This document shows, piece after piece, positions 9,458-54,339 of a stretch of DNA of 64,000 nucleotides. A program made the translations under genes and the position numbers. Source of the stretch: Stutzerimonas urumqiensis (GTDB taxonomy: Bacteria; Pseudomonadota; Gammaproteobacteria; Pseudomonadales; Pseudomonadaceae); assembly GCF_003640395.1 (NCBI RefSeq), contig NZ_RBZQ01000003.1, forward strand, positions 248,001 to 312,000, in the 5' to 3' direction. Position 1 is the first letter of the stretch, and each line of letters begins with the position of its first letter. A model generated the notes under the pieces. It had not been told where the DNA came from. It ran no database searches and saw only the letters and a list, made by a program, of their open reading frames with translations.

Positions 9458-9499
9458 TGGGAACTACCTGGAAAACGCGCCCGGCTGGCGGGCGCGGTA

Positions 9500-10294
9500 T
9501 CAGCGGACCAGCCCCTCCATCGGGGACGAGGCGCTGGCATAGAGTTTCTTCGGCATGCGCCCGGCCAGATAGGCCAGTCGGCCGGCCTCGATCGCATGGC
9601 GCATGGCGCGGGCCATCATCACCGGCTGCTGCGCATGGGCGATCGCGCTGTTCATCAGCACGGCCTCGCAGCCCAGCTCCATCGCGATGGTCGCGTCGGA
9701 CGCCGTACCCACGCCCGCATCCACCAGCACCGGCACGGTGGCTTCCTCGAGGATGATGCGCAGGTTATAGGGGTTGCAGATGCCCAGCCCGGTGCCGATC
9801 AGGCCGGCCAGCGGCATGACGGCGATGCAGCCCATCTGCGCCAGTTGCCGCGCGATGATCGGGTCGTCGCTGGTGTAGACCATCACGTCGAACCCGTCGG
9901 CGATCAGCGTCTCGGCCGCTTTCAGGGTTTCGATGACGTTGGGAAACAGCGTCTTCTGGTCGGCGAGCACTTCCAGCTTGACCAGGTTGTGGCCATCGAG
10001 CAGTTCACGGGCCAGCCGGCAGGTGCGCACCGCTTCTACCGCGTCGTAGCAACCGGCGGTGTTCGGCAGGATGGTGTAGCGATCCGGCGAAATCACGTCC
10101 AGCAGGTTGGGCTCGTCCGGGTTCTGGCCGATATTGGTACGGCGAACCGCGACGGTGACGATCTCAGCCCCTGACGCCTCGATGGCTTCGCGGGTTTCGG
10201 TCATGTCCTTGTACTTGCCGGTGCCGACCAGCAAGCGCGATTGGTAGGTACGACCGGCGAGAACGAAGGGCTTGTCGGCGGGAACTGGGTTCAT
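9500..10294 (-). CDS. thiG: Thiazole synthase ThiG
   Basis: 264 residues. ThiG builds the thiazole phosphate of thiamine from 1-deoxyxylulose-5-phosphate, dehydroglycine and ThiS thiocarboxylate. It is a TIM barrel whose Schiff-base lysine lies in [14 protein letters not shown]; the phosphate-binding glycines are in [14 protein letters not shown] and VLMNSAIA. It follows thiS after about 100 bases. No TPP riboswitch is recognisable upstream of thiS or thiG, unlike thiC in many bacteria. Confidence 0.97.
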
Positions 10295-10395
10295 CGATGT
10301 TTCCTCATGTCAGGCGGGCGACGGATGACCCCGCATCGCCAGCACGGGTTGGCCCGGTGCGACGATGCTGGCGGACCGTCGCAACGCGCCGGCAA

Positions 10396-10596
10396 TCAGC
10401 CTCCGCCGATGGCGTGCACCACTTCGACGCGATCGCCCTCCTTCAAGGGCGTGGCCGGATGCTGGCTGCGGGGCACGATGTCCAGGTTCAGCTCGACCGC
10501 AACGCGGCGGCCGGCCAGTTCGAGACGCTCGAGCAGGTCTGTGATCGTCGCGCCATCGGACACTTCGAATGGCTCGCCATTGAGCTGGATACGCAT
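10396..10596 (-). CDS. thiS: Sulfur carrier protein ThiS
   Basis: 66 residues with the ubiquitin-like beta-grasp pattern (MRIQLNGEPFEV, TITDLLERL, VAVELNLDIVPR) and the diagnostic C-terminal Gly-Gly, here IGGG, which is adenylated and converted to the thiocarboxylate that feeds sulfur to ThiG. It is directly upstream of thiG, as expected for a functional pair. Confidence 0.95.
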   Translation of the reverse strand: MRIQLNGEPFEVSDGATITDLLERLELAGRRVAVELNLDIVPRSQHPATPLKEGDRVEVVHAIGGG

Positions 10597-10671
10597 GGGG
10601 TCGGCCTTTTTTGCGGGCCGCGCATTCTAGCCTGAAGCGCAATGGGGTCCAAGCGACACGCCGCCCTCCCG

Positions 10672-11043
10672 TCAGGCCATGCGCCAGCCTGCGATCAGCA
10701 GGCATGCCCAACCCGCCATGAAACACAGCCCGCCGAGCGGCGTGACCATGCCGAGCTTGCCGACGCCCGTCAGGGTGAGCAGGTACAGGCTGCCGGAGAA
10801 CAGCAGGATTCCACCAACGAACGAAGCACCCGCCGCGGTCACCAGGCGGCCTGGCGCGTGCATCGCCAGCAAGGCCACCCCGAACAGCGCCAGCGCGTGC
10901 ACCAGCTGATACAGCACGCCCGTCTGGAACACCGCCAGGTACTCGGCGCTCAGGCGGCCGCGCAATCCGTGGGACGCGAAGGCGCCAAGGGCGACGCCGG
11001 TAAGGCCGAAAAAGGCGGCCAGGGGCAGAAAGGCACGAATCAT
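10672..11043 (-). CDS. DUF423 membrane protein
   Basis: 123 residues from the ATG at 11043, which has GGAG eight bases upstream. Four hydrophobic segments fill the protein. Motifs typical of DUF423 (YwdK family) are visible: GVALGAFASHGLRGRL near residue 16, FQTGVLYQLVHALALF, and the glycine-rich SFVGGILLFSGSLYLL with TPLGGLCFMAGW. It is an inner-membrane family without an assigned function. Adjacent and divergent to mtgA. Confidence 0.88.
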   Translation of the reverse strand: MIRAFLPLAAFFGLTGVALGAFASHGLRGRLSAEYLAVFQTGVLYQLVHALALFGVALLAMHAPGRLVTAAGASFVGGILLFSGSLYLLTLTGVGKLGMVTPLGGLCFMAGWACLLIAGWRMA

Positions 11044-11076
11044 GAGGGCTCCGGTCATAAGCGTGAGGCTGCTGCC

Positions 11077-11082
11077 TATAAT
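11077..11082 (+). promoter_or_regulatory. Candidate -10 element for mtgA
   Basis: A perfect TATAAT lies in the short gap between the divergent DUF423 and mtgA genes. No good -35 hexamer is found 16-18 bases upstream. If used, transcription would begin near 11089, which would leave a GTG at 11091 almost leaderless and favours the ATG at 11112 as the mtgA start. Confidence 0.35.
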
Positions 11083-11111
11083 GGCCCTCCGTGAAGCTCC
11101 CGACCAATCCC

Positions 11112-11819
11112 ATGTTCTGCTCCCTGACTCGCCGCCTGCTCAAGCTCGCGCTCTACCTCGGCCTCGCCTCGATGGGCCTGGTCCTCATGCTGCGCTGGGT
11201 ACCGCCGCCATTCACGGCGCTGATGATCGAGCGCAAGATCGAATCCTGGGGCACCGGGGAGGCGATCGACCTCGAGCGTGACTGGCGCCCCTGGGCGGAA
11301 CTACCCGGCAACCTGAAGATGTCGGTCATCGCAGCCGAGGACCAGAAGTTCGCCGAGCACTGGGGGTTCGACTTCGCCGCCATCCGCGCCGCGATCGAGC
11401 ACAACGAAGAAGGCGGCTCGCTGCGCGGCGCCAGCACGCTGAGTCAGCAGGTCGCCAAGAACCTCTTCCTCTGGTCCGATCGCAGCTGGCTGCGCAAGGG
11501 CCTGGAAGTCTGGTTCACGGCATTGATCGAACTCTTCTGGCCCAAGCAGCGCATCCTCGAGGTCTACCTCAACAGCGTCGAATGGGGTGACGGCATCTTC
11601 GGTGCCGAGGCGGCGGCGCGCCATCACTTCGACAAGGGCGCGCCTGACCTGTCGGATCGCCAGGCCAGCCTGCTCGCCGCCGTGCTCCCGAACCCGCGCG
11701 AATGGAGCGCCAGCCGGCCGACCGCCTATATCGAACGCCGCGCGCGCTGGATACGTCAGCAGGTCCGCCAGCTTGGCGGTACGAACTACCTGGCAGAGAT
11801 GCGCACGCCGCACCCTTGA
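11112..11819 (+). CDS. mtgA: Monofunctional biosynthetic peptidoglycan transglycosylase MtgA
   Basis: 235 residues from the ATG at 11112; an in-frame GTG at 11091 would add seven. A single N-terminal membrane anchor (about 8-28) is followed by a GT51 glycosyltransferase domain. The catalytic Glu lies in VIAAEDQKFAEHWGFD, and GASTLSQQVAKNLFLW plus KQRILEVYLNSVEWGDGIFG are further GT51 signatures. It polymerises lipid II into glycan strands in the periplasm and has no transpeptidase domain. The start choice is the only doubtful point. Confidence 0.93.
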   Translation: MFCSLTRRLLKLALYLGLASMGLVLMLRWVPPPFTALMIERKIESWGTGEAIDLERDWRPWAELPGNLKMSVIAAEDQKFAEHWGFDFAAIRAAIEHNEEGGSLRGASTLSQQVAKNLFLWSDRSWLRKGLEVWFTALIELFWPKQRILEVYLNSVEWGDGIFGAEAAARHHFDKGAPDLSDRQASLLAAVLPNPREWSASRPTAYIERRARWIRQQVRQLGGTNYLAEMRTPHP

Positions 11820-38013: not shown

Positions 38014-38580
38014 CGGCTTCTCGTAGGAGCGAGCTTGCTCGCGAAACGGGCGCGAACGATGGGCCCGCAGGGTGCGTTCGCGAAGCCATGCACCGGTGGT
38101 TTCGCCGTGGCGTGACCTCAGGCGGATTGTTCGCTTCGCTCCTGAATCCGCCCTACGTCGCTCATCAAGTACCGGGTGCTGGGGTTGATGTGAGCCGTGG
38201 GTTCGCTGCCCGGTTCGCCCGCAAGCGGGCTCCTACAGGAACGGCACGGTGGTTCGGCTCCTCGTAGGAGCGAGCTTGCTCGCGAAACGGGCCCGAACGA
38301 TGGACCCGTAGGGTGCGTTCGCAAAGCCATGCACCGGTGGTTTCGCCGTGGTGTGGGCCTCAGGCGGATTGTTCGCTTCGCTCCTGAATCCGCCCTACGT
38401 CGCCCGTCCACGTACCGGGTGCTGGGGTTGATGTGAGCCGTGCGTTCGCTGCCCGGTTCGCCCGCAAGCGGGCTCCTACAGGAACGGCACGGTGGTTCGG
38501 CTTCTCGTAGGAGCGAGCTTGCTCGCGAAGCGGACGCGACCGCGGGTCCCGTAAGGGCATTCGCGAAGCCATGCACCCCC
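38014..38580. repeat. Composite tandem repeat: two full ~242-bp units and a partial third, built of REP-type modules
   Basis: Full units begin at about 38014 and 38255 and a truncated third at about 38498 (period 241-243 bases). Each holds, in order: a REP with GTAGGAGCGAGCTTGCTCGC (38023, 38264, 38507); a palindrome of the type GGTGC(G/A)TTCGCGAAGC-ATGCACC (38071-38094 and copy 2); a GGCGGATTGTTCGCTTCG element ending in CCGCCCTACG (38119-38157, 38361-38399); a spacer with GTACCGGGTGCTGGGG; and a second REP around CGCCCGCAAGCGGGCTCCTA (38216-38240, 38459-38483). No transposase or credible gene is inside. A mirror-image array lies at 44309-44701. Confidence 0.88.
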
Positions 38581-42449: not shown

Positions 42450-42958
42450 CGCCGCTCCCACACTTCGCAGGCGTAAGCCGGCCGGCCTTCCTCGGCGGCA
42501 TGCTCGATGCGCGAGACCCGGCGCCAGTCGGCTTCGGTCCAGTCGGGGAAGAACACATCGCCTTCGGGCGCGAGGTCGATTCGCGTCAGGTACAGCCGGG
42601 CGGCGGACGGCAGGGCCTCGGCGAACAGCTGCGCGCCGCCGATCACCATCAGCTCGCTCGCGCCCTGCTCGTCGGCCCACTCATCGGCACGCACGACGGC
42701 GCGCTCGAGGCTGTCGAAGGTCTCGGCGCCCTCGTACCGCAGGCCGGACTGGCGACTGACCACTAGGTTGAGACGACCCGGCAACGGCCGGCCGAGCGAT
42801 TCGAACGTCTTGCGACCCATGAGGGTGGGTTTGCCGAGCGTCACCGACTTGAAGTACTTGAGTTCCGCTGGCAAATGCCAGGGCATGGCGTTGTCGCGGC
42901 CGATCACGCCATTGCGGGCGACCGCCACGATGAGGCTGAGGGGGTGTCGTGTATTCAT
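42446..42958 (-). CDS. folA: Dihydrofolate reductase
   Basis: 170 residues. Motifs: LIVAVARNGVIGRDNAMPWHLPAELKYFK with the catalytic acid in the PAELKYF region, LMGRKTFESLGRPLPGR and the NADPH loop LMVIGGAQLFAEAL. It makes tetrahydrofolate and works with thyA (60601 onwards in this window), which consumes methylene-THF. Trimethoprim target. Divergent from glpQ. Confidence 0.97.
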   Translation of the reverse strand: MNTRHPLSLIVAVARNGVIGRDNAMPWHLPAELKYFKSVTLGKPTLMGRKTFESLGRPLPGRLNLVVSRQSGLRYEGAETFDSLERAVVRADEWADEQGASELMVIGGAQLFAEALPSAARLYLTRIDLAPEGDVFFPDWTEADWRRVSRIEHAAEEGRPAYACEVWERR

Positions 42959-43011
42959 GGCGGCGGAGCATAGCAGAGCCCGCCGAGCGACCGTCCGTCA
43001 GAAAACGGTCG

Positions 43012-43029
43012 CTGTCACCGCGGCGTCAC
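43012..43029 (+). promoter_or_regulatory. Candidate Pho box upstream of glpQ
   Basis: CTGTCAC, four bases (CGCG), then GCGTCAC: two 7-base direct repeats with the 11-base period of PhoB sites (consensus CTGTCAT, 4 bases, CTGTCAT). The first half is a full match and the second matches five of seven. It lies 78 bases before the glpQ start, and secreted glycerophosphodiesterases are commonly phosphate-regulated. Confidence 0.45.
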
Positions 43030-43106
43030 GTACTCGTTGTCGAAGCGTCGACAAACCGTCACTCGCCGCGGGCAGCCTTTGGCGCATCCACCACAAGGAG
43101 AACACC

Positions 43107-44264
43107 ATGTCCCGCCTCCGTTCGCCGCTGCGCCAGCCGATGATCGGCACCCTGATCGCTTGCCTGCTCACGCCCCTCGCCGCCCAGGCCGCCGGACCGA
43201 ACGACTCGGTGCGCGAGGCCATCGACTGGGCCGAACGTCGCGCCCCCGGCTTCAACGGCAAGCCCGACGCCAAGCCACTGGTGATCGCCCACCGCGGTGC
43301 CAGCGGCTACGTGCCCGAGCACACGCTGGCGTCGTATGCGCTGGCCATTCTGCAGGGCGCCGACTACGTCGAGCCGGACCTTGTCATGACGCGCGACGGC
43401 CACCTGATCGCGCGCCACGACAACGAACTGGGCCTGACCACCGACGTCTCGCAACGCCCGGAATTCGCCGATCGCCAGCGCACCCAGGTGATCGACGGCA
43501 GCGAGCTGACCGGCTGGTTCACCGAAGACTTCACCCTGGCCGAGATCAAGCAACTGCGCGCCATCGAGCGCATCCCGCAGGTACGCCCCGGCAACGCGCG
43601 GATGGACGGCGCCTTCGAGGTCCCGACCCTGCAGGAGATCATCGACCTGGTGAAGACGCTGCAACTGAGCGAAGGCCGGCGCATCGGCCTGTACCCGGAA
43701 ACCAAGCACCCGACGCACTTCCAGCAGCTGGGCCTGGCCATGGAGCGCCCGCTGGTGCGCACCCTCGAGCGCAACGGCTATCTGGGCCGCTGGTCGCCGG
43801 TGTACATCCAGTCGTTCGAGGTGGATAACCTCAAGACGCTCAACGAACTGACCGACCTGCGCCTGGTCCAGCTGTTCGGCGGCGGCCAGCCGTACGACCA
43901 GACCGTGCGCGGCACCGACCTGACCTACGCCAAGATGGCCACCGCCGAAGGGCTCGAGGCCATCGCCCAGTACGCCGACGGCGTTGGCCCGGACAAGAGC
44001 TACATCATCCCGCGCGACGCCAGCGGCAACCTCGGCTCGCCGACCGACTTCGTCCCCAACGCCCACGCGGCCGGGCTGAAAGTCCACCCCTACACCTTCC
44101 GCGCCGAGAACGCCTTCCTGCCGGCCAACCTGCGCAGCAGCGACCAGCCGGACGAACGCGGCGACATCGAGGCCGAAATCCGCGCCTTCCTCGACGCCGG
44201 CATCGACGGCCTGTTCATCGACCACCCGGACATCGCCGTACGCCTGCGCGAGCAGCAGGACTGA
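43107..44264 (+). CDS. glpQ: Periplasmic glycerophosphodiester phosphodiesterase GlpQ
   Basis: 385 residues from ATG 43107 (AAGGAG seven bases before). Signal peptide to about residue 27 (PLAAQAAG). The GDPD catalytic motif is VIAHRGASGYVPEHTLASY (His and Arg) with YVEPDLVMTRDGHLIARHD (Glu, Asp, His). GlpQ hydrolyses deacylated phospholipids to glycerol-3-phosphate and alcohol in the periplasm. Length and the large GDPD insertion fit the E. coli GlpQ group. A possible Pho box suggests phosphate-starvation control. Followed by a repeat array. Confidence 0.94.
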   Translation: MSRLRSPLRQPMIGTLIACLLTPLAAQAAGPNDSVREAIDWAERRAPGFNGKPDAKPLVIAHRGASGYVPEHTLASYALAILQGADYVEPDLVMTRDGHLIARHDNELGLTTDVSQRPEFADRQRTQVIDGSELTGWFTEDFTLAEIKQLRAIERIPQVRPGNARMDGAFEVPTLQEIIDLVKTLQLSEGRRIGLYPETKHPTHFQQLGLAMERPLVRTLERNGYLGRWSPVYIQSFEVDNLKTLNELTDLRLVQLFGGGQPYDQTVRGTDLTYAKMATAEGLEAIAQYADGVGPDKSYIIPRDASGNLGSPTDFVPNAHAAGLKVHPYTFRAENAFLPANLRSSDQPDERGDIEAEIRAFLDAGIDGLFIDHPDIAVRLREQQD

Positions 44265-44308
44265 CCGACGGAACCGAAGCGCTGAACAGCCAAGGACGGC
44301 TTCGGCCA

Positions 44309-44701
44309 CGTAGGGCGGATTCAGGAGCGAAGCGAACAATCCGCCTGAGGCCACGCCACCGCGGAACCATCGGTGCATCGCTTCGCGAATGCACCTCTAC
44401 GGGCCGCCGTTCCGCCACCCCAACCGCTTCGCGAGCAAGCTCGCTCCTACGAGAAAACCAAAACCACCGCGCTGTTCCCTGTAGGAGCCCGCTTGCGGGC
44501 GATCCGGGCCACGGGCGCATGGCTTACATCAAGCCCCAGCACCCGGTACATGGACGGGAGACGTAGGGCGGATTCAGTAGCGAAGCGAACAATCCGTCTG
44601 GCGCCATGCAACGACGAAACCGCCGGTGCATTGCTTCGCGAATGCACCCTACGGCCCAGGCCTTCCGCACGGCCTGATCGCCAGCAAGCTGGCTCTTACG
44701 G
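44309..44701. repeat. Composite REP-type repeat array, inverted relative to 38014-38580
   Basis: Read on the minus strand, this stretch holds the same modules in the same order as the array near 38 kb. On the plus strand: the GGCGGATTC...AATCCGCC element (44309-44350 and 44562-44600), the GGTGCAT(C/T)GCTTCGCGAATGCACC palindrome (44372-44395 and 44625-44648), a REP of the GAGCAAGCTCGCTCCTAC type (44428-44450), a second REP GTAGGAGCCCGCTTGCGGGC (44479-44501) and a decayed REP (44676-44701). No gene is supported between 44265 and 44746. It separates glpQ from the convergent CoA-transferase gene. Confidence 0.88.
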
Positions 44702-44746
44702 ACTCCCCTGTGCGGTAGGCCCGCCAGGTTCATGGCGCCGCCGGCC

Positions 44747-45940
44747 TCAGCGAATCACGCCCGCCTCACGCAGCGCCTTCAGGCTTGCCTCGTCTTTGCC
44801 CAGCACCCGCCCGAGGACCGCGTCGGTGTGCTCGCCGTGTAGCGGCGGCGCCTTCGCTTCGACGGTGGGCGTGCGGGAGAACCGCAGCGGGCTGCGGACC
44901 ATGCGCACTTCGCCGGCGACCGGATGCTCGACCGACATGACCAGGTCGCGGTAGCGCGCGGTGTCCGAGGCGAACGCCTGCTCCAGGTTCTTCACCTCGC
45001 CGACCGGGATGCCCTGCTCGCGCAGCGCGGCGATCAGGGCGTCGCTCGTCCATGCCATGAAGGCCTCCTGCAGGATCGGCAGCAGCACCTCACGGTTGCG
45101 CGTGCGCCCTTCGTTGCGCGCGAAGCGGTCGTCGGCGTACAGCTCGGGGCGCTCGAGCACCGCCTCGCACAGCCGGCGGTATTGCTCGTCGTTGCCCACC
45201 GCCAATGCGATGGAACCATCGGCCGTGTTGAACAGCTGGTACGGCACGATGCTGGCGTGCGCATTGCCGTAGCGCTGGGGGACCTTGCCAGTGTTGAGGT
45301 AGCCCGAGGCGACGTTGGCCAGGAAGTGCATGGCGCTGTCCGACAGGGCGACGTCGATCGACTGGCCGAGGCCTGACTTCTCCCGCTCGTACAGCGCACC
45401 GAGGATGCCTTGCACCGCGTTCATGCCCGTCACCAGGTCGACGAAGGCGACGCCCAGCCGCATCGGCTCGCCGTCCTTGTCGCCGGTGATCGACATGAAG
45501 CCGCTCTCGGCCTGGATGATGAAGTCGTAACCCGGGCGGTTCTCCAGCGGATTGTTGCGCCCGTAGCCGCTGATCGAGCAGTGGATGAGCCGCGGATTGA
45601 GCGCTGACAGCGTCGCGTAGTCCAGCCCCAGGCGCTCGAGGCTGGCCGGCAGGAAGTTTTCCACGACGATGTCCGCCTGCGCCGCCAGGTCGAGGATGAG
45701 CTGGCGCCCTTCGGGCTTGCGCATGTCCACCGCCAGGCTCTGCTTGTTGCGATTGGCGCCGAGGTAGTAGGTCGAAATGCCCGCCTTGGCCGGCGGCATC
45801 CAGATGCGGGTGTCGTCGCCGGCGTTGACGTGCTCGATCTTCCACACCTCGGCGCCCAGGTCGGCCAGCGTCATGGTCGACCAGGGGCCGGCCAGGATGC
45901 GCGTCAGGTCGAGGACTTTGATGCCTTGCAGAATGCTCAC
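44747..45940 (-). CDS. CaiB/BaiF family (class III) CoA-transferase
   Basis: 397 residues from GTG 45940, with AAAGGAG seven bases before it. The family start VLDLTRILAGPWSTMTLADLGAEV is clear, as are RNKQSLAVDMRKPEGRQLIL, the VVENFLPASLERLGLDY segment and ISGYGRNNPLENRPGYDFIIQAESGFMSITG. These enzymes move CoA between acyl-CoA and a free carboxylic acid. It is divergent from a tctCBA transporter 207 bases away, which suggests that it activates a dicarboxylic or related organic acid taken up by that system. The acid itself cannot be read from the sequence. Confidence 0.88.
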   Translation of the reverse strand: MSILQGIKVLDLTRILAGPWSTMTLADLGAEVWKIEHVNAGDDTRIWMPPAKAGISTYYLGANRNKQSLAVDMRKPEGRQLILDLAAQADIVVENFLPASLERLGLDYATLSALNPRLIHCSISGYGRNNPLENRPGYDFIIQAESGFMSITGDKDGEPMRLGVAFVDLVTGMNAVQGILGALYEREKSGLGQSIDVALSDSAMHFLANVASGYLNTGKVPQRYGNAHASIVPYQLFNTADGSIALAVGNDEQYRRLCEAVLERPELYADDRFARNEGRTRNREVLLPILQEAFMAWTSDALIAALREQGIPVGEVKNLEQAFASDTARYRDLVMSVEHPVAGEVRMVRSPLRFSRTPTVEAKAPPLHGEHTDAVLGRVLGKDEASLKALREAGVIR

Positions 45941-46147
45941 GAAATGCTCCTTTGGCGGTCGCCGTTGAACGGCCAGTATGGACGAAGCGCCGGCGACTGG
46001 CCGAGTGGCAGGGAGGCGAACGCAACAAGCGGGGCGGTAATCGGCCGCTCGCCGTGGCGAGTCCTGCATGCCGGCTATGCTGATCGAACGGTCGCCGCTT
46101 CGTGCCGGCCGCGCCGCACCGACAACTAGAAGAAAAGGAACCGCGCA

Positions 46148-47122
46148 ATGACACTCTCCTTCAAGCGTGCCCTCCAGGCGCTCCTGCTGGGCGCCGCCCT
46201 CCCGCTCGCCACCCTCGCCCACGCTGAATGGCCGACCGACAACATCCGCCTGGTGGTGCCCTACGCCCCTGGCGGCACCACCGACATCCTCTCGCGCAAG
46301 GTCGCCGACATGCTGCAGAAGGAGCTCGGCACCGTGGTGGTGGAAAACCGCCCCGGCGCCGGCTCGACCATGGCCACCGCGCAGCTCGCGCGCGGCGGGC
46401 GCGGCGCCGACCACACCATCGTCATGGCTTCGCCCGGCCACACCATCGGGCCGATGATCTACAAGAGCCTGCCGTATGACCCGGTCAAGGACTTCCGCTT
46501 CATTCGCAACGTCATCGAGATCCCGAACGTCATGGTCGTCCCGGCAGACAGCCCGTACGACAGCGTCGGCGAGTTCATCGAGGCGGCGAAGAACAAGGAA
46601 ATGACCTTCAGCTCGGCGGGGGTCGGCAGCTCGATCCACATGTCCGGCGAGCTGTTCAAGACGCTGACCGGCACCAACATGACCCACGTGCCCTTCCGTG
46701 GCAGCGGCGAGGCGCTGCCGGCGTTGCTCAGCGGCGACGTGGACGTGTCCTTCGAGAACCTGCCGACCGTGCTGCCGCACATCCAGTCCGGCAAGCTCAA
46801 GGCGCTGGCGGTCACCTCCAAGGAGGCTTCGCCCTTTCTTCCCGGCGTCGAACCGATCTCGACGATCGCCGCCGACCAGGGCCTCGGCGACTTCGCCACC
46901 ACCGCCTGGTTCGGTGTGATCGCGGATGACTCGATGCCCGACGAGGCCGTGCAGAAGCTCCAGGCCGCGCTCGACAAGATCGTCGCCGACCCGCAGTTCC
47001 TGACCTTCATCGAGCAGTTCGGCGGGGAGCCGGCGGAACAGGCGGGCGATGCCTTCCGCCAGTACGTTGCCGACGACGTGCAGCGCTGGAGCCGCGTGGC
47101 CGGCGCAGCGCAGCTCGACTGA
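46148..47122 (+). CDS. tctC: Tripartite tricarboxylate transporter substrate-binding protein (TctC/Bug family)
   Basis: 324 residues from ATG 46148, with AAAAGGAA upstream. A signal peptide ends near ATLAHAE. Bug-family features: PTDNIRLVVPYAPGGTTDILSRKVADML, VVENRPGAGSTMATAQLA and HMSGELFKTLTGTNMTHVPFRGSGEALPALLSGDVDV, which shape a Venus flytrap with two water-mediated carboxylate sites. It delivers an organic acid to TctAB. The ligand could be any of several small carboxylates; the divergent CoA-transferase favours one that is activated with CoA. Confidence 0.9.
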   Translation: MTLSFKRALQALLLGAALPLATLAHAEWPTDNIRLVVPYAPGGTTDILSRKVADMLQKELGTVVVENRPGAGSTMATAQLARGGRGADHTIVMASPGHTIGPMIYKSLPYDPVKDFRFIRNVIEIPNVMVVPADSPYDSVGEFIEAAKNKEMTFSSAGVGSSIHMSGELFKTLTGTNMTHVPFRGSGEALPALLSGDVDVSFENLPTVLPHIQSGKLKALAVTSKEASPFLPGVEPISTIAADQGLGDFATTAWFGVIADDSMPDEAVQKLQAALDKIVADPQFLTFIEQFGGEPAEQAGDAFRQYVADDVQRWSRVAGAAQLD

Positions 47123-47135
47123 GCGGTGGCCGTAG

Positions 47136-47630
47136 ATGACTGACGCTCCCCGCTCGCGCTGGGCCAATCCTGACGTCTGGCTCGGCGCCTTCTGGCTGCT
47201 GGCGGCGCTGGCGTTCGTGCTGTACCTGGTGCCCAACCACATCGACGAGGCGCCGATGGTCGAGAACCCGATGCAGTCGCCGCGCTGGCTGCCGAGCCTG
47301 GCCGGGTGGCTGATCGTCGCCCTGTCGCTGGGGCTGATCGCCGATGCGCTGACGCGGCCCCTGTCCGCCGCCGCCTCGGAGACGGCGGGCGAGCGCAGCG
47401 GCGCAGGGCGCGTCCTGCTGATGCTGATCGCGCTCGGCACCTACTGGTTGCTGCTCGAACTGCTGGGCGCGATCGCCACAGGCATCCTCGCCACGCTCAT
47501 CCTGTTCGCCGCCCATCCGGTCCGCACAGTCTGGCTCTACGGACTGGCGATCGCGCTGCCGTGGCTGGTGTGCCTGCTGTTCATCCACGTGCTGAACGTC
47601 CCGTTGCCGTCCGGCACGCTGTGGGACTGA
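47136..47630 (+). CDS. tctB: Tripartite tricarboxylate transporter small membrane subunit TctB
   Basis: 164 residues with four hydrophobic segments (about 13-32, 52-70, 88-125, 132-155) in the TctB layout. Such proteins are poorly conserved, and the call relies on size, topology and position between tctC (13 bases upstream) and tctA (24 bases downstream). TctB forms the membrane complex with TctA and helps Na+-coupled uptake. Confidence 0.88.
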   Translation: MTDAPRSRWANPDVWLGAFWLLAALAFVLYLVPNHIDEAPMVENPMQSPRWLPSLAGWLIVALSLGLIADALTRPLSAAASETAGERSGAGRVLLMLIALGTYWLLLELLGAIATGILATLILFAAHPVRTVWLYGLAIALPWLVCLLFIHVLNVPLPSGTLWD

Positions 47631-47654
47631 CCGGCGCACGACGCGAGTCCGCCT

Positions 47655-49136
47655 ATGGAAGGTATGCAAGAAGTCCTGGCCCTGTTCCTGAGTGTCGACA
47701 ACTTCGTCGCGATCGGCGTCGGCGTGCTGATCGGTGTGGTCGTCGGCGCCATCCCCGGCCTGACCGCGACGATGGCGGTGGCGCTGGCGCTGCCCTTCAC
47801 CTTTTCGCTCGAGCCGATCACCGCGATCCTGCTGCTGGTCGGCATCTACAAGGGCGGCATGTACGGCGGTTCGATCACCGCCATCCTGATCCACACGCCC
47901 GGTTCGCCCGCCTCGGCCTGCACCCTGCTCGACGGTTATCCGCTGACGCAGCAGGGCAAGGCCGGCAAGGCGTTGCAGATGGCGCTGTACTCGTCCTGCA
48001 TCGCCGACCTGCTGTCGAACCTGGCGCTGATCCTGTTCGCCTCCTACCTGGCCAAGATCGCGCTCAACTTCGGCCCGCCGGAGTTCTTCTGGCTGATCTG
48101 CTTCTCGCTGACGATCATCGTCTCGGTGGCCGGCGACTCGGCGATCAAGGGGCTGATCGCCGCGAGCCTCGGGGTGATCGTGTCCTGCATCGGCATGGAC
48201 ATGGTCTACGGCAGCCAGCGGCTGACCTTCGACAACTTCAACCTGATGGACCGGGTGGCCTTCATCCCGCTGCTGATCGGCCTGTTCGCCGTACCCGAGG
48301 TGATCGATTTCTACCTCAAGAAGGCCGCGCCACACGTGCGCGCCAGCAATACCGGCAAGGGCCTGACCGGCGGCGAACTCAAGCGCAGCCTCAAGACCAT
48401 CGTGCGCGGCAGCCTGATCGGCGTGATCATCGGCGCCATCCCCGGCACGGGCGCCACCGCGGCTTCGTTCATTTCCTACAGCGACGCCAAGCGGCGCTCG
48501 CCCAACCGCGCCAACTTCGGCAAGGGTGAGCTGGACGGTGTGGCGGCAGCCGAGTCAGGCAACAACGGCGTGGCGGGGGCGACGCTCATTCCGCTGCTGT
48601 CGCTGGGCATTCCGGGCGACGTGATCACGGCGATCATCCTTGGCGCCTTCATGATCCACGGGCTCACGCCCGGTCCGGTGCTGTTCCAGGAGAACCTGAC
48701 GCTGGTCTACGCGCTGTTCTGCGGCATCATGCTGAGCTCGGCGGTGCTGCTGGTGGTGGGCCGCGGCGTGATCCGCTACTTCTCGCTGGTGGCCGACATT
48801 CCGAAGGAGATCCTGCTGCCGATCGTGCTGATGTTCTGCGTCTACGGCAGCTTCGCGGTGAACAACAGCCTGTTCGATGTCGGCCTGATGCTGCTGTTCG
48901 GCGTGGTCGGCTACCTGTTCAACCGCACCGGCTTCGCGACGGCGCCGTTCCTGCTGGGGTTCATCCTCGGGCCGATGTTCGAGGACAACCTGCGGCGCAC
49001 GCTGCTGATCGGTCACGGCGATCCGATGATCTTCTTCCGCGGCCCGATCACCTGGCTGTTCATCGTGCTGACGGTGTTGTCGCTGTTCTTCGCGCTGCGT
49101 CGCTACTGGCTCGATCGGCGCCAGGCAGCGGCCTGA
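47655..49136 (+). CDS. tctA: Tripartite tricarboxylate transporter large membrane subunit TctA
   Basis: 493 residues with about 11-12 membrane segments. TctA signatures: GVVVGAIPGLTATMAVALALPFTF, YKGGMYGGSITAILIHTPGSPAS and the repeated half GVIIGAIPGTGATAASFISYS with AAAESGNNGVAGATLIPLLSLGIPGD. It is the translocating subunit of the TTT transporter. Closes the tctCBA operon and is followed by a hairpin at 49189-49212. Confidence 0.95.
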   Translation: MEGMQEVLALFLSVDNFVAIGVGVLIGVVVGAIPGLTATMAVALALPFTFSLEPITAILLLVGIYKGGMYGGSITAILIHTPGSPASACTLLDGYPLTQQGKAGKALQMALYSSCIADLLSNLALILFASYLAKIALNFGPPEFFWLICFSLTIIVSVAGDSAIKGLIAASLGVIVSCIGMDMVYGSQRLTFDNFNLMDRVAFIPLLIGLFAVPEVIDFYLKKAAPHVRASNTGKGLTGGELKRSLKTIVRGSLIGVIIGAIPGTGATAASFISYSDAKRRSPNRANFGKGELDGVAAAESGNNGVAGATLIPLLSLGIPGDVITAIILGAFMIHGLTPGPVLFQENLTLVYALFCGIMLSSAVLLVVGRGVIRYFSLVADIPKEILLPIVLMFCVYGSFAVNNSLFDVGLMLLFGVVGYLFNRTGFATAPFLLGFILGPMFEDNLRRTLLIGHGDPMIFFRGPITWLFIVLTVLSLFFALRRYWLDRRQAAA

Positions 49137-49188
49137 CCGAGGCGGGGCGATCGGCAGGTGGACGGGGGAAATTCGGAGGGGAATGCGA

Positions 49189-49212
49189 GACGGGCCGCGT
49201 AAGCGGCCCGTC
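49189..49212. terminator. Hairpin between tctA and the DUF4282 gene
   Basis: GACGGGCCGC (49189-49198) pairs perfectly with GCGGCCCGTC (49203-49212) around a GTAA loop. It sits between convergent genes; there is no T-run. Confidence 0.6.
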
Positions 49213-49218
49213 GAGACA

Positions 49219-49458
49219 TCACTGGCGGCTGGCGACCCGTTGCAGGTTCTCGTTGATCTTGAACAGCACGATCATCAGCTCGCACCACATGCGCGTTCCG
49301 ATCAGGCCGCCGATCAGGATGGCAAGGCTGATCCAGATGCCGCCGCCGCTGAACAGGTTGAACAGCGCACCCACGACCACGCCGATCATGCCGCCCCAGT
49401 ACAGCAGCACGATGATTTTTGGCGTAAGCATGGCGTCGAAGAAGAAAGCGTTTTTCAT
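49219..49458 (-). CDS. DUF4282 small membrane protein
   Basis: 79 residues from ATG 49458 with AGGA eight bases before. It reads FDAMLTPKIIVLLYWGGMIG followed by GGGIWISLAILIGGLIGTRMWCELMIVLFKINENL, which is the DUF4282 pattern: two membrane helices and a conserved R-x-x-x-E near the second. Small inner-membrane family of unknown role, often single genes. The upstream gap (49459-49646) separates it from the divergent DUF2868 gene. Confidence 0.83.
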   Translation of the reverse strand: MKNAFFFDAMLTPKIIVLLYWGGMIGVVVGALFNLFSGGGIWISLAILIGGLIGTRMWCELMIVLFKINENLQRVASRQ

Positions 49459-49646
49459 GGCAGAAATCCTTTTGCAAATGCACAGGACAGCGAGAAGCGC
49501 TGCGCGGCGAATAGGCCTGTCCCTGGCTGATTGAGAAGTGCGACGCCGACCGGTGTGATCGGCGGCGGCGATAGTAGCCGAACCCAAATCGCACGAGCGG
49601 ACTCCCATCACCTTTCGGGACGGTTATTCTCAGGCCGACCCCATCG

Positions 49647-51047
49647 ATGAGAAACCGCGTGCCTGCACCTCAGCCAACCCCGCTATCGCCCTTCGACCGT
49701 CTGTGGCTCACCGAGGCCGTGCGCCTGCGCGAACAGCACGCCGGCCCGCTGGAAGACGGCGAAGCCAACCGCCACGCCCGCCAGCAGGGCGGCGACGCGG
49801 CCGACCTGATCGAGGCCCGGGCCCTCTGGCTGGCCCGGCGCGACGGGCTGGACCAGGCGCTGCGGCACTGGCAGCAAGGCGCGCGGCTGGCGCGCTATCT
49901 GCTCGCAGCGCTGGCGCTGTTCATCGGCGCCGGGCTGGCGTACTCGGCCCTTGGCGATGGCGTGCGGCCGGTCAACGTGTTCTGGGCGCTGGGCAGCCTG
50001 CTCGGGTTGAACCTGCTGACCTTGCTCGGCTGGCTCGCCGGCTTCGTCTTCGCTGGCGACGGCAACGGTGCGCTGGGCCGGTTGTGGCTGTGGCTCAGTC
50101 GCCTGCTGGCACGCGACGCCCGCGCGGCGCACCTGGCGCCGGCGCTGCTCAGCCTGCTCGAACAGCGCCGCCTGAGCCGCTGGCTGCTCGGCAGCGGCGC
50201 CAACAGCTTCTGGCTGCTGGCAATGAGCGCGGCGCTGCTGGGGCTGCTGGCGCTGATGGCGACCCGGCAGTACGGCTTCGTCTGGGAAACGACCATCCTT
50301 GGCGAGCGCACCTTCATCGGCCTGACCCAGGCGCTCGGCGTCGTCCCCGGCCTGCTCGGCTTCAGCACGCCGGATGCCGGCCAGATCGCCGCCAGCAGCG
50401 GTGTCGCCACACCCGATGCCCGGCATGCATGGGCCGGCTGGCTGGTCGGCGTGACGCTGGTCTACGGCTGGCTACCGCGCGCGCTGCTCACCGCCCTGTG
50501 CGGCTGGCGGTGGCGACGCGGTCGGGCCGCGCTCCGGCTCGATCCGTCGCTGCCGGCCTACCGACTGCTGCGCGAACGGCTGCAACCCTCGAGCGAACGA
50601 CTCGGCATCGCCGATCCGGCCCCCGCAGCCCTGCATGCGCCGGCCTCCGGCCGTCAGCTCGACGGTAGCGAGGGGGCCGTGCTGGTCGCCATCGAGCTTG
50701 ACCCTCACGTTTCCTGGCCGCCCGCACTGCCCGCTGGCATCGCCGACGCCGGTGTGCTCGACGAGCGCGAGCAGCGCCACCGCCTGCTCGACCAGCTCAC
50801 CCGCTACCCACCCGAGCGCCTGGCGATCGCCTGCGATCCGCGCCGCTCGCCGGATCGCGGCACGCTCGGGCTGATCGGTGAACTGTCGCGCTGCGCGGGC
50901 CAGACGCGCGTCTGGCTGCTGCAACCGCTGACGGGGCAGGCGCTGGACAGCGCGCGCCTCGGCGACTGGCACGACGCGCTCGACCGGCTGGGCATCGCCC
51001 ACCAGGCCGCTGCGCCATTGCAATGGCTGGAGACCGGGCATGATTGA
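49647..51047 (+). CDS. DUF2868 membrane protein
   Basis: 466 residues. The N-terminal 85 residues are soluble (RLWLTEAVRLREQ, GDAADLIEARALWLARRDGLDQAL); four hydrophobic segments follow (about 88-110, 112-140, 190-210, 255-280); the C-terminal 180 residues are soluble and alpha/beta-like. This is the DUF2868 family, which in Pseudomonas is consistently followed by a DUF3482 GTPase, as here. I infer a membrane anchor or receptor for that GTPase. Function unknown. Confidence 0.83.
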   Translation: MRNRVPAPQPTPLSPFDRLWLTEAVRLREQHAGPLEDGEANRHARQQGGDAADLIEARALWLARRDGLDQALRHWQQGARLARYLLAALALFIGAGLAYSALGDGVRPVNVFWALGSLLGLNLLTLLGWLAGFVFAGDGNGALGRLWLWLSRLLARDARAAHLAPALLSLLEQRRLSRWLLGSGANSFWLLAMSAALLGLLALMATRQYGFVWETTILGERTFIGLTQALGVVPGLLGFSTPDAGQIAASSGVATPDARHAWAGWLVGVTLVYGWLPRALLTALCGWRWRRGRAALRLDPSLPAYRLLRERLQPSSERLGIADPAPAALHAPASGRQLDGSEGAVLVAIELDPHVSWPPALPAGIADAGVLDEREQRHRLLDQLTRYPPERLAIACDPRRSPDRGTLGLIGELSRCAGQTRVWLLQPLTGQALDSARLGDWHDALDRLGIAHQAAAPLQWLETGHD

Positions 51048-51197: not shown

Positions 51198-52571
51198 ATG
51201 ACCGCGCCGCTGAAGCTCGCCGTGGTCGGCCACACCAACGTCGGCAAGACCTCGCTCCTACGCACCCTCACGCGCGACGCCGGCTTCGGCGAGGTGTCGC
51301 ACCGGCCGAGCACCACCCGCCATGTCGAGGGCGCCCGGCTGTCGGTCGATGGCGAGCCGCTGCTGGAACTGTTCGACACGCCCGGCCTCGAGGATGCGAT
51401 CGCGCTGCTCGATTACCTCGAGCGCCTCGACCGGCCCGGCGAACGGCTCGACGGGCCCGCCCGGCTAGCGCGGTTCCTGGACGGCGCCGAAGCACGGCAG
51501 CGGTTCGAACAGGAAGCGAAGGTGCTGCGCCAACTGCTCCTGTGCGACGCCGGGCTCTATGTCATCGATGCCCGCGAGCCGGTGCTGGCCAAGTACCGGG
51601 ACGAGCTGGCGGTGCTGGCCGGCTGCGGCAAGCCGCTGCTGCCGGTGCTCAACTTCGTGCAGGCGCCGGGCGTGCGGGAAAACGAATGGCGCGAAGCCAT
51701 GGCCCGCCTGGGCCTGCATGCCCTGGTGCGCTTCGATACCGTCGCACCGCCCATCGACGGCGAGCGACGCCTGTACGAAAGCCTGGCGCTGATGCTGGAA
51801 CACGCCCGGCCGCGCCTGCATCGCCTGATCGAGCATCATCAGGCGCAGGGCCAGGCGCGGCATGAAGCCGGTGCCCGGCTGATCGCCGACCTGCTGCTCG
51901 ATGTCGCGGCCACGCGTCACGGCGTCAGCGCCGACCCCGAACGCGAGCGCCTCGCCATCGGCGAACTGCACCAGGCGGTGCGCGCCCGCGAGCAGCGCTG
52001 CGTCGAGGCGCTGCTGCGGCTGTATGCCTTTCGTCCGGGCGATGCGGTCGCCGCCGACCTGCCGCTCAGCGAAGGACGCTGGGGCGACGACCTGTTCAAC
52101 CCGGAAACCCTGCGCCAGCTGGGCGTGCGGGTCGGCAGCGGCATGGCGGCCGGTGCGGCGGCCGGTGCCGGTGTCGACCTGCTGGTCGGCGGCATCACGC
52201 TCGGCGCGGCCGCGCTGATCGGTGCGCTGGCTGGCGGTGGCGCGCAGACTGCGCGCCACTACGGCGAGCGCCTGCTCGGCAAGCTCAAGGGCCAGCGCGA
52301 ACTGACCGTCGACGACGCCGTGCTGCGTCTGCTGGCGCTGCGCCAACGTCAGCTGCTCAAGGCCCTGGCGGCCCGGGGCCACGCGGCGACCGACGCCATC
52401 CGCCTGGAAACGCCGCAGGACAAGGCCTGGCGCGAAGGCCGCCTGCCCGAACCGCTGCTGCGTGCCCGTGCTCACCCGACGTGGTCCAGCCTCACCCCGC
52501 GCGCACGCCTCGACGACGCCGACCGCACCCGCGCCCTCGACGCGCTCACCCGGGCGATCCTGGACGACTGA
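51198..52571 (+). CDS. DUF3482 GTPase
   Basis: 457 residues from ATG 51198. N-terminal Era-like GTPase domain: P-loop GHTNVGKT (11-18), LFDTPGLEDA (G3). The expected NKxD is replaced by VLNFVQAPG, so guanine specificity may be weak or arise otherwise. The C-terminal DUF3482 half contains a glycine-zipper region (VGSGMAAGAAAGAGVDLLVGG and ITLGAAALIGALAGGGA, about 312-350) that may insert into or line a membrane. Paired with DUF2868 upstream. Role unknown. Confidence 0.85.
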   Translation: MTAPLKLAVVGHTNVGKTSLLRTLTRDAGFGEVSHRPSTTRHVEGARLSVDGEPLLELFDTPGLEDAIALLDYLERLDRPGERLDGPARLARFLDGAEARQRFEQEAKVLRQLLLCDAGLYVIDAREPVLAKYRDELAVLAGCGKPLLPVLNFVQAPGVRENEWREAMARLGLHALVRFDTVAPPIDGERRLYESLALMLEHARPRLHRLIEHHQAQGQARHEAGARLIADLLLDVAATRHGVSADPERERLAIGELHQAVRAREQRCVEALLRLYAFRPGDAVAADLPLSEGRWGDDLFNPETLRQLGVRVGSGMAAGAAAGAGVDLLVGGITLGAAALIGALAGGGAQTARHYGERLLGKLKGQRELTVDDAVLRLLALRQRQLLKALAARGHAATDAIRLETPQDKAWREGRLPEPLLRARAHPTWSSLTPRARLDDADRTRALDALTRAILDD

Positions 52572-52628: not shown

Positions 52629-53133
52629 CGGCGAGTGACCGCCGCGGCGACAGCCAGGGCGCGTTAAGAAACGCAGCGAACGATCCGCCAGGCAGCGCGT
52701 AATCGCCAAGCGCCGGTAGCGTGCTTTTGCGCAGAGGCGCCGTGCATGAATGCACGCGGCGCTTTACCGCTGCGGTTGTAGGCGATAACCGAACGCTCTG
52801 CGTGGGTCGCGGTTGCCGGCTGCCGATCCCCTGCTACGTTTAGTCGTATAACGATAAGAACAAGAGCGACCCCATGCCCCGCAGTCAGGACCCGATCCGC
52901 ACTGCCCGCCCCTCGCTGCCGCGCGCCGAATGCTTCGGTCCGACGGCCGAAAGCCTTTTCTCACCGCTTGTTCGCCCCGCCGCCGCCTCGGCGCCGGCAT
53001 TCCTGTACGCCCAGACACTCGCCGCGCGGTCATCCGCCGCCGGCGTTCACGGTCCGTCAATCCATCGTTCCGTCCGCACAGACCGACCTATCCGGCCGGC
53101 CGTTGCGGCTTCGTCCCCAAGGAGGAGAAACGC
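52629..53133. other. 505-base intergenic stretch before the ABC importer; no gene supported
   Basis: After the repeat remnant and a hairpin at 52737-52762 the sequence holds TATAAC (52847-52852) within an AT-rich patch around 52838-52865, the only good promoter candidate in this gap, though its -35 is poor. A frame from ATG 52874 reaches into the next gene but is Pro/Arg/Ser-rich without family features and lacks a ribosome site, so I do not call it. The importer mRNA may thus have a leader of about 270 bases. Confidence 0.5.
52737..52762 (+). terminator. Hairpin downstream of the DUF3482 gene
   Basis: GCGCC-GTGCAT (52737-52747) pairs with ATGCAC (52750-52755) and GGCGC (52758-52762) with a two-base bulge, followed by TTT. 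Possible terminator of the DUF2868-DUF3482 unit. Confidence 0.42.
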
Positions 53134-54339
53134 ATGAAGCGTTCAGCAATCGCAATGGCCGTCCTGGCCGCCGCCACGCTCCCGGCCGGCGCCGCGGAAA
53201 TTTCCGATGGCAAGGTGAAGATCGGCATCCTCAACGACCAGTCCGGCGTGTATGCCGACTTCGGCGGCAAGTGGTCGGTGGAAGCCGCGAAAATGGCGGC
53301 CGAGGACTTCGGCGGCAAGGTGCTGGGTGCGCCGATCGAGATCATCGACGCCGACCACCAGAACAAGCCGGACATCGCCTCGAACATCGCGCGCAAGTGG
53401 TACGACACCGAGCAGGTCGACTCCATCATGGAGCTGACCACCTCGTCGGTGGCGCTGGCGGTGCGCAACATCAGCGAGCAGAAGGAAAAGATCGACCTGG
53501 TGACCGGCGCGGCGACGACCGAACTGACCGGTGAACAATGCTCGCCCTATGGCTTCCACTGGGCGTACGACACCCACGCGCTGGCGGTCGGTACCGGCGG
53601 TGCGCTGGTGTCCCAGGGTGGCGACACCTGGTACTTCCTGACCGCCGACTACGCCTTCGGCTACTCGCTGGAGGATCAGACCAGCGACTTCGTGAAGCAG
53701 AAAGGCGGCGAGGTCCTCGGGTCCGTCCGCCATCCGCTGGGCACCAACGATTTCTCCTCGTTCCTGCTCCAGGCGCAGGCCAGCGGTGCCGAGGTGGTCG
53801 GGCTGGCCAACGCCGGGCTCGATACCGCCAACGCGATCAAGCAGGCGGCCGAGTTCGGCATCGTCGCCAGCGGCCAGCGCCTCGCCGCGCTGCTGTTCAC
53901 CCTGTCGGAAGTGCACGGCCTGGGGCTCGAGGCCGCCCAGGGGCTGACCCTGACCGAGAGCTTCTACTGGAACCGCGACGAGGCCTCGCGCGAATTCGGC
54001 AAGCGCTTCTATGAGCGCACCGGGCGCATGCCGAACATGGTCCATGCCGGGACCTACTCGGGCGTGCTGCAATACCTCAAAGCCATCGAGAAGGCCGGCA
54101 CCGACGCCACCAAGCCGGTCGCCCAGGTGATGCACGAGATGCCGGTCGACGACTTCTTCGCACGCGGGGCCAAGGTGGGCGCCAACGGGCGGCTGATCAG
54201 CGACGTCTACCTGATGGAGGTGAAGACGCCCGAAGAGAGCAAGGAGCCGTGGGACTACTACAAGGTCCTGGCGACGGTGCCGGGCGCCGAGGCGTACATC
54301 GACCCGGCCCAGAGCGGCTGCGACCTGGCCAAGCCATGA
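53134..54339 (+). CDS. ABC transporter substrate-binding protein, branched-chain amino acid (HAAT) type
   Basis: 401 residues from ATG 53134 (AAGGAGGAG upstream). Signal peptide MKRSAIAMAVLAAATLPAGA. Periplasmic-binding (Peripla_BP_6) features: VKIGILNDQSGVYADFGGKWSVEAAKMA, DHQNKPDIASNIARKWYD and NMVHAGTYSGVLQYLKAIEKAG. It captures the ligand for the livGFHM-like components downstream. Members of this subgroup bind amino acids, amides, urea or aromatic acids; no neighbouring catabolic gene tells which. Two Cys (C-terminal GCDLAKP and ECSPYG) may pair. Confidence 0.88.
   Translation: MKRSAIAMAVLAAATLPAGAAEISDGKVKIGILNDQSGVYADFGGKWSVEAAKMAAEDFGGKVLGAPIEIIDADHQNKPDIASNIARKWYDTEQVDSIMELTTSSVALAVRNISEQKEKIDLVTGAATTELTGEQCSPYGFHWAYDTHALAVGTGGALVSQGGDTWYFLTADYAFGYSLEDQTSDFVKQKGGEVLGSVRHPLGTNDFSSFLLQAQASGAEVVGLANAGLDTANAIKQAAEFGIVASGQRLAALLFTLSEVHGLGLEAAQGLTLTESFYWNRDEASREFGKRFYERTGRMPNMVHAGTYSGVLQYLKAIEKAGTDATKPVAQVMHEMPVDDFFARGAKVGANGRLISDVYLMEVKTPEESKEPWDYYKVLATVPGAEAYIDPAQSGCDLAKP

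Follow-up and report, generated by a model that had tools for sequence, protein, structure and literature searches.

A class III CoA-transferase facing a TctCBA importer in Stutzerimonas: a predicted import-and-activation unit for a C6 dicarboxylate of the pca network

Analysis of a 64,000-nucleotide stretch of the Stutzerimonas urumqiensis genome (NCBI RefSeq assembly GCF_003640395.1, contig NZ_RBZQ01000003.1, positions 248,001 to 312,000; hereafter the window) revealed a module in which the gene of a class III (CaiB/BaiF) coenzyme A (CoA) transferase is divergent from tctCBA, the genes of a tripartite tricarboxylate transporter (TTT). Our comparative analysis suggests, with a probability of roughly two in three, that this module is an import-and-activation unit for a C6 diacid, β-ketoadipate (3-oxoadipate) or adipate, of the pca network. 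The estimate covers the diacid in either form and overlaps with the adipate alternative weighed below; for β-ketoadipate itself we put the chances somewhat short of even. Import by TctCBA and CoA transfer follow from the protein families, and a C6 diacid heading toward 3-oxoadipyl-CoA is suggested by the operator of the related modules together with the thiolase genes that accompany certain relatives of the importer and of the CoA-transferase. The substrate, an unknown organic acid in the original prediction, is narrowed to a predicted C6 diacid through the PcaR-type operator of the relatives and the pca context. The reading is carried by synteny, by operator conservation at the genus level, by the context of relatives in other taxa and by an intact pcaR-pcaI-pcaJ-pcaF row in the same genome.

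44747-45940, minus strand: class III (CaiB/BaiF) CoA-transferase, 397 aa, GTG start, PF02515 at 428.9 bits
45941-46147, no strand: divergent spacer of 207 bases, the shared regulatory region, from the sequence and its alignment with 16 other loci
46148-47122, plus strand: TctC, periplasmic solute-binding protein, 324 aa, PF03401 at 210.5 bits
47136-47630, plus strand: TctB, small membrane subunit, 164 aa, PF07331 at 44.6 bits (cut-off 29.1)
47655-49136, plus strand: TctA, large membrane subunit, 493 aa, PF01970 at 492.5 bits

The CoA-transferase and tctCBA are intact, and the spacer has exactly the 207 bases predicted for a common regulatory region. The CoA-transferase runs from its GTG start at 45940 to a stop at 44747, and its CoA_transf_3 domain exceeds the PF02515 cut-off of 23.3 bits by far. 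TctC, TctB and TctA, each above its Pfam cut-off, stand in operon-like order with gaps of 13 and 24 bases and make up a full TTT set. An open reading frame (ORF) of 897 aa starting at 47440 in the frame of the CoA-transferase is an open-frame extension of it; the 17 orthologues align over the 397-aa form. The enzyme matches PF02515 without PF01144, the class I family of PcaIJ. Residue D168, presumably the catalytic aspartate, is invariant in the 17 aligned rows and lies opposite an Asp of the PDB entry 9br6. The best solved match is 10uh (439 bits, residues 4-396), from whose name, 'formyl-coenzyme A transferase', no inference is drawn; 9br6 (human SUGCT, 'succinate-hydroxymethylglutarate CoA-transferase') matches at 352 bits over residues 3-396. 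The solved chains nearest to TctC are 2qpq (Bug27), 2dvz and 5oei. COG3181 and COG3333, mentioned below, correspond to TctC and TctA.

Among 56 Stutzerimonas genomes, an orthologue of the CoA-transferase is present in 17 including the window's, the other 16 at 80-85% identity, and the next matches in the genus, including a paralogue that follows gcdH, reach at most 53%. At all 17 orthologous loci tctC faces the CoA-transferase. TctA orthologues occur in 19 genomes (the 18 others at 87-90%), and in 17 of these the CoA-transferase faces tctC. Two genomes, G049 (one contig, 100% complete) and G022 (71% complete), carry tctCBA alone, as tctC-tctC-tctB-tctA with two tctC genes in a row, which indicates that the halves of the module are separable. 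These two genomes are what could be cited for a chance abutment of two unrelated units; the facing arrangement in 17 of 19 genomes and a single conserved operator in the shared spacer make that explanation very improbable. The uptake-and-activation module for a carboxylate put forward in the original prediction is thus supported, by this synteny and by a similar layout with a non-homologous CoA-transferase described below, and the refuting condition named there, rare co-occurrence of the two units, fails within Stutzerimonas. In three of the 17 module genomes (G051, G047 and G026; loci L005, L007 and L009) a second tctC lies on the far side of the CoA-transferase; it shares 85-94% identity with that genome's main tctC, and two receptors may there serve one TctBA.

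The module occupies a constant place. Gene clusters of GDPD and DUF2868 flank the 11 loci that were laid out with long flanks. Out of 37 genomes that lack the module by TctA, 17 loci were fetched, and in 13 of them the GDPD gene (one match being partial) stands directly beside DUF2868 or DUF4282-DUF2868; a permease-like gene intervenes at one of the remaining loci, and the last three have no GDPD match. The site of the variants without CoA-transferase (L132 in G049, L133 in G022) has GDPD on the left in both and DUF2868 on the right in G049, the contig of G022 ending there. In view of the distribution over 17 of 56 genomes, the constant flanks and the empty sites, the module looks like a single patchy cassette at a single site. 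No plasmid record covered at least 80% of the module in the plasmid DNA search. Beyond the genus, the exact pairing of this CoA-transferase with tctCBA was not seen in the samples searched, and only the functional pairing recurs. In the family sample 17 of 398 genomes pass 1e-122 with the CoA-transferase, all of them Stutzerimonas, and in the class sample two of 369 pass 1e-125, the window's own and G068 (55%). A search of the named genome collection with two short peptide patterns gave 27 loci, of which 11 are of Stutzerimonas type at 80-85%; the remainder comprise Kordiimonas at 55% and others at no more than 49%, except a 33-residue fragment.

Alignment of the 17 module spacers revealed the palindrome GTKCGATWAYCGMAC, which ranks first among the conserved 15-mers with 25.6 bits, the median of the blocks being 14.4 (15-base blocks ranked over the 16 spacers other than the window's, in L014 coordinates). 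It fits both the published PcaR motif of Pseudomonas putida, WWWRKTCGATWATCGSAYRRW (PMC8222616), and the PcaR operator GTTCGATAATCGCAC (PMC12455658); papers are cited here by PMC number, each for the portion of its text that was at hand. In the independent direction, a position weight matrix (PWM) built from six pcaR-pcaI sites alone, with a maximum of 28.0, scored 22.6-28.0 in 15 of the 17 module spacers. The exact pattern taken from the module spacers matched 20 distinct sites in 11 genomes, and its reversed control matched one; these genomes were hand-chosen, eight of them with the module, and the module-spacer matches arise partly by construction. The 20 sites comprise seven module spacers (in seven of the eight module genomes searched, the window's being the miss), six pcaR-pcaI spacers, four positions before a gene for a receptor of a tripartite ATP-independent periplasmic (TRAP) transporter, and three others, near an aromatic-acid major facilitator superfamily (MFS)-like gene, a gene weakly similar to QuiC and an AraC-type regulator. 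The TRAP receptor was identified by family test in the window's genome (G000) and by like sequence in the other three.

The matrix reached at least 18.2 in all 18 spacers in which pcaI adjoins pcaR, out of 23 pcaR stretches examined (pcaI was not found in five, and two of the 18 genomes had supplied PWM sites). The IclR-type gene beside pcaI is PcaR, with TIGR02431 above its cut-off in both Stutzerimonas cases tested. PcaR is present in 49 of the 56 genomes and in every one of the 17 module genomes, a co-occurrence that is weak evidence given how widespread PcaR is in the genus. The box is also kept before the main tctC in G049 (20.4) and G022 (28.0), where the CoA-transferase is missing. With 15 of 17 spacers at 22.6 or above, the module spacer carries a PcaR-type operator at the genus level. 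Most module spacers have a second conserved block, GGTCGAAACCACAAC (22.9-23.2 bits, L014 84-100), in the interval that separates the box from the CoA-transferase start; it was not seen in the spacer of the window.

46032-46046, no strand: degenerate PcaR-box remnant GGGCGGTAATCGGCC, PWM 5.2, at the place of the good box of 15 of 17 loci

The window's own spacer differs from those of its relatives. Its best site scores 5.2 and is weak, as six of 309 tiles of 207 nucleotides from the window are listed above that value; the best scores of 300 random 207-base pieces of the window had a mean of -4.2, with the 95th percentile at 2.2 and the highest value at 11.3. The site lies 92 bases from the CoA-transferase start, compared with 85-91 in the 15 good loci, and because of this homologous position it is read as a remnant. 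With its own operator degenerate, control of the window's module by PcaR is predicted from the relatives.

The pathway that the module would feed is present in the genome, as pcaR, pcaI, pcaJ and pcaF are intact and in a row on contig C11, unlinked to the module on C12. PcaR scores 339 bits with TIGR02431 (cut-off 285), PcaF 712 with TIGR02430 (cut-off 597), and the pcaR-pcaI box 20.5 with the matrix. The earlier statement that no regulator is adjacent and that the rest of the pathway must lie elsewhere is sharpened by these data: the relatives' spacers carry a PcaR-type operator, and pcaR-pcaI-pcaJ-pcaF on C11 are candidates for both. The genome holds three class III CoA-transferases and four TctA genes in total.

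A functional parallel comes from G950, a member of another gammaproteobacterial family. When TctA was searched at 1e-205 in 398 Pseudomonadota genomes, four passed: the window's, another Stutzerimonas, G419 and G950. In G950, pcaR is followed by pcaJ-pcaI on the minus strand and then by divergent tctC-tctB-tctA-pcaF, with a TctA 75% identical to the window's, PcaR at 310 against 285, PcaF at 701 against 597, and PF01144 in pcaI and pcaJ. Between a perfect box and the ATG of tctC, which follows a ribosome-binding-like stretch (the ORF caller had placed a TTG start further upstream), there are 14 bases, and further boxes precede pcaI (14.5, weaker) and pcaR (20.4). The arrangement matches that of the window, except that the transferase belongs to class I and not to class III and that the thiolase is attached. 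A layout that recurs with two unrelated classes of CoA-transferase would represent a clean non-homologous replacement of one step.

In the proposed mechanism, the periplasmic ligand of TctC would be a C6 dicarboxylate, β-ketoadipate being the likeliest and adipate the second candidate, and TctBA would carry the acid into the cell. There it would receive CoA, presumably from succinyl-CoA, through the class III CoA-transferase as an additional, non-homologous counterpart of PcaIJ, and PcaF, encoded elsewhere, would cleave the 3-oxoadipyl-CoA to acetyl-CoA and succinyl-CoA. PcaR is expected to control the divergent promoter in most module-bearing Stutzerimonas, its operator having apparently decayed in the window's species. 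Substrate, CoA donor, PcaR binding and enzymatic activity are all predicted from sequence comparison. The module would suggest that some bacteria scavenge either acid, adipate being a building block of nylon and polyesters, through a binding-protein importer wired to an aromatic regulon. It also offers a testable ligand and regulator for a branch of a large importer family with many orphan members, and likewise for one branch of the CaiB-type CoA-transferases.

The relatives of both halves bring adipate forward as the real substrate, which would be imported, converted to adipyl-CoA, oxidized by general beta-oxidation to 3-oxoadipyl-CoA and passed to PcaF, with PcaR answering adipate as an analogue of its inducer. 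As a special case within the C6 diacid reading, this is possible, if on the doubtful side. CoA-transferase relatives were found in 83 plasmid records, and six loci, whose annotation is incomplete, were opened. A 3-oxoadipyl-CoA thiolase lies near the relative in three of the six (annotated pcaF within 5 kb in the Ochrobactrum, Shinella sumterensis and Agrobacterium plasmids), all three with a hydratase or 3-hydroxyacyl-CoA dehydrogenase and the first two, whose relatives stand at 59.5%, also with an acyl-CoA dehydrogenase. TctA relatives at 73-75% on the S. zhaodongensis megaplasmid, the G051 chromosome and a Halomonas plasmid are each accompanied by a 3-oxoadipyl-CoA thiolase and a CaiB-type CoA-transferase, the first two in operons of adipate type. 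Adipate would also explain why a second transferase is kept alongside PcaIJ, and a P. putida PcaR sensor is described as responding to adipate, together with malonate, maleate, citrate, glutarate and succinate (PMC12455658). The window itself fits a beta-oxidation operon poorly, its nearest neighbours being GDPD, DUF4282 and DUF2868 genes with no beta-oxidation enzyme among those scanned, and the GDPD and DUF2868 clusters recur as neighbours at the 11 other loci with long flanks. G950 has its importer linked to pcaIJ and pcaF, and its 20-kb stretch gave no match to beta-oxidation genes. Preference for β-ketoadipate over adipate, the weakest step of the argument, comes from G950 and from the variants without CoA-transferase, in which PcaIJ could activate the acid.

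The operon on the S. zhaodongensis plasmid NZ_CP076684.1 likewise joins a CoA-transferase to tctCBA (TctA 73%). It differs from the window's module in having its own IclR gene, a hydratase, a dehydrogenase, a thiolase and ETF (electron transfer flavoprotein) genes, a CoA-transferase only 45% identical and no good PcaR box (best 7.4). Nine genes of this adipate-type operon on the megaplasmid (L038) and of its chromosomal counterpart in G051 (L128, on a 4.7-Mb contig) encode proteins 95-99% identical, which suggests a recent transfer.

A tree of 22 CoA-transferase rows places the Stutzerimonas group in a set of nine supported at 98/97, with Kordiimonas and five of the six opened plasmid enzymes (Variovorax excepted), apart from GcdG and from the adipate-type enzymes of S. 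zhaodongensis and G051. A first TctA tree, which included the genome's other TctA proteins, had long branches and was unresolved, and it was rebuilt without them. In the rebuilt tree Halomonas, G046 and G419 form a group whose union with the Stutzerimonas set is supported at 84/81 only. With this support, and with G950 falling beside the adipate-type operons (83/78), the TctA tree cannot choose between β-ketoadipate and adipate. The wider clade is not devoted to C6 acids throughout, given that the more distant importer of Ponticoccus has genes for an AMP-binding protein and a citryl-CoA lyase as neighbours.

Glutarate, suggested at the outset by gcdG-like matches, was the first hypothesis and was demoted by the tree and the operator analysis. 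On this account the CoA-transferase would replace a lost GcdG in the window's species and supply glutaryl-CoA to the retained GcdH, the loss of the PcaR box marking the re-assignment. At L158 (G000:C11:405000-424000) gcdG is indeed missing between gcdH and the next gene (about 9840-9925), with gcdH at 90-94% to the G051 gene over the alignment range and the LysR gene and flanking genes kept, whereas it follows gcdH at the four other loci laid out (L126, L127, L130 and L160); the box of the window's spacer is lost as well. Other module genomes nevertheless have both the module and a gcdG-type paralogue, shown in place for G051 and G026, and the CoA-transferase groups apart from GcdG. With the succinate-glutarate equivalog NF052585 (cut-off 750) it scores 383 bits and the gcdH-linked paralogue 535; as the paralogue fails too, this shortfall decides little. 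The window's spacer and the gcdR-gcdH spacer of the same genome share no word longer than 8 bases. A glutarate role is considered unlikely, and equally unlikely is the fuller history in which a class III CoA-transferase, as a second, non-homologous enzyme for β-ketoadipate or adipate, was recruited into the PcaR regulon with a TTT importer, which would be the first binding-protein-dependent one for β-ketoadipate, and in which the unit then escaped PcaR in the window's species and took over glutarate activation upon the loss of gcdG.

The importer might alternatively take up an aromatic acid such as protocatechuate or 4-hydroxybenzoate, with the CoA-transferase as a bystander. The same box stands before a TRAP importer and near the aromatic-acid MFS-like gene, and TphC is reported to show that TTT receptors can accept aromatic diacids (PMC12577307, in the part available). 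The CoA-transferase is syntenic at 17 of 17 loci, the importer of G950 lies between pcaIJ and pcaF, which act on β-ketoadipate and not on the ring, and the relatives occur in what we read as aliphatic diacid operons; we regard this possibility as distinctly improbable.

Beyond these alternatives, several observations weigh against assignment of the module to a C6 diacid of the pca network, or against β-ketoadipate in particular. A second transferase looks superfluous in a genome where PcaIJ is expected to activate β-ketoadipate already, and the class III relatives beside acyl-CoA dehydrogenases point to adipate no less well. PcaR control singles out no one acid, given that the P. putida sensor answered every diacid tested. 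The operator is decayed in the window's own spacer, and the matrix gives 10.7 in that of G002 (L019). G049 and G022 keep tctCBA with no CoA-transferase beside or between the genes, and no PcaR was found in the 71% complete genome of G022. The tctCBA genes of G046 and G419, at 75%, have no pca genes nearby (20 kb in G419), and the rebuilt TctA tree pairs G950 with the adipate-type operons and not with the window's group. No 3-oxoadipyl-CoA thiolase is listed, under incomplete annotation, in the stretches of Nitratireductor (the closest of the plasmid relatives of the CoA-transferase, 60%), Shinella HZN7 and Variovorax, and the 55% relatives of Kordiimonas and G068 show neither pca nor tct nearby (19.5 kb in G068). 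The missing gcdG together with the decayed box makes a glutarate role possible in the window's species. The NCBIfam models score 25.7 against 128.5 for pcaI and 43.3 against 243.6 for pcaJ (a cut protein) in G016, and found nothing at 1e-30 in G000 and G950; with these models below cut-off, the names pcaI and pcaJ rest on PF01144, on gene place and on the paper on P. stutzeri A1501.

Among known systems, the pca regulon of P. putida and P. stutzeri A1501 (PMC2907835) is among the nearest, sharing the PcaR-type operator of 15 of 17 module spacers and the combination of a CoA-transferase with a transport function whose product would feed PcaF. The module differs from it in its class III (PF02515) CoA-transferase, as opposed to class I (PF01144) PcaIJ, in its TTT importer, and, in the window, in being unlinked to pca with a degenerate operator. 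PcaT, the MFS β-ketoadipate permease of P. putida, has the task proposed here for TctCBA; being an MFS carrier and not a binding-protein-dependent TTT, it is presumably without homology to it. GcdG-type CoA-transferases beside gcdH are of the same class III family, as paralogues at 47-51%, and differ by a separate tree branch, another operon and an adjoining LysR gene. AdpC (RPA4515) has been described as an orphan TTT receptor for C6-C9 diacids (PMC5812351, from the portion at hand), and it shares the TctC family and the medium-chain dicarboxylate ligand proposed for the window's TctC; its entry 5oei matches at E 4.7e-47, and Bug27 and 2dvz match at least as well. In P. stutzeri A1501 pcaR lies immediately upstream of pcaI and pcaK is absent (PMC2907835). 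In Ralstonia CL21 the authors infer that a PcaR-controlled CoA-transferase acts on adipate and glutarate too (PMC12543098), and the knockout of a TTT in Vibrio natriegens is reported to have had no detectable effect on protocatechuate uptake (PMC13253662), both according to the accessible text. COG3181 and COG3333 are stated to accompany aromatic metabolism and transport genes within regulogs of the IclR family (PMC8222616), so a link of TTT importers to IclR-controlled aromatic regulons is already in print at the COG level. In the open-licence PMC literature, represented mostly by titles and the beginnings of abstracts, no TTT importer or class III CoA-transferase assigned to β-ketoadipate was found.

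Other sites of the PcaR-type box were also observed. At L183 (G000:C11:320000-339900), positions 5451-11124, the window's genome has a TRAP importer that comprises a pair of receptor genes together with a gene for an OprD-type porin; a perfect box lies between the receptors, and the same box precedes a TRAP-receptor-like gene in G037, G043 and G046. A PcaR-type box (20.5) lies about 115 bases upstream of a xylose-isomerase-like TIM-barrel gene (PF01261; L183:1-767), and for this reason the PcaR regulon of the genus may extend beyond pca.

42507-44264: GDPD gene, left neighbour
44308-44395, plus strand: dispersed repeat copy 1, 88 nt, outside the module
44561-44648, plus strand: dispersed repeat copy 2, 88 nt, outside the module
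49189-49212, no strand: hairpin between the convergent tctA and DUF4282 genes, perfect 10-bp stem and 4-nt loop
49219-49611, minus strand: DUF4282 gene, right neighbour
49647-51047: DUF2868 gene, right neighbour
51198-52571: GTPase-like gene, right neighbour
52930-54339: binding-protein-like gene, right side

No regulator was found among the five neighbours scanned by family (GDPD, DUF4282, DUF2868, GTPase-like and binding-protein-like). The promoter and terminator scans gave 0 matches each, the latter listing nothing in 44200-49700, hairpin included. The module had been placed between a repeat array and a hairpin, as accessory DNA often is. The hairpin is real, with a fold of -26.5 kcal/mol (z -6.4) for 49180-49220, while the supposed array consists of two copies, 86% alike, of a dispersed repeat and marks no boundary, because its 15-base core GTAGGGCGGATTCAG recurs on the other strand at 38142 and 38384 (four matches in the window against 0.10 expected in shuffles). 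The notion of accessory DNA holds for the patchy occurrence in the genus and not for base composition, the G+C fraction of the module being 0.672 against 0.676 for the window, nor for the repeat. Two copies of the latter lie at each of two places, 38142-38398 and 44308-44648, in opposite orientations.

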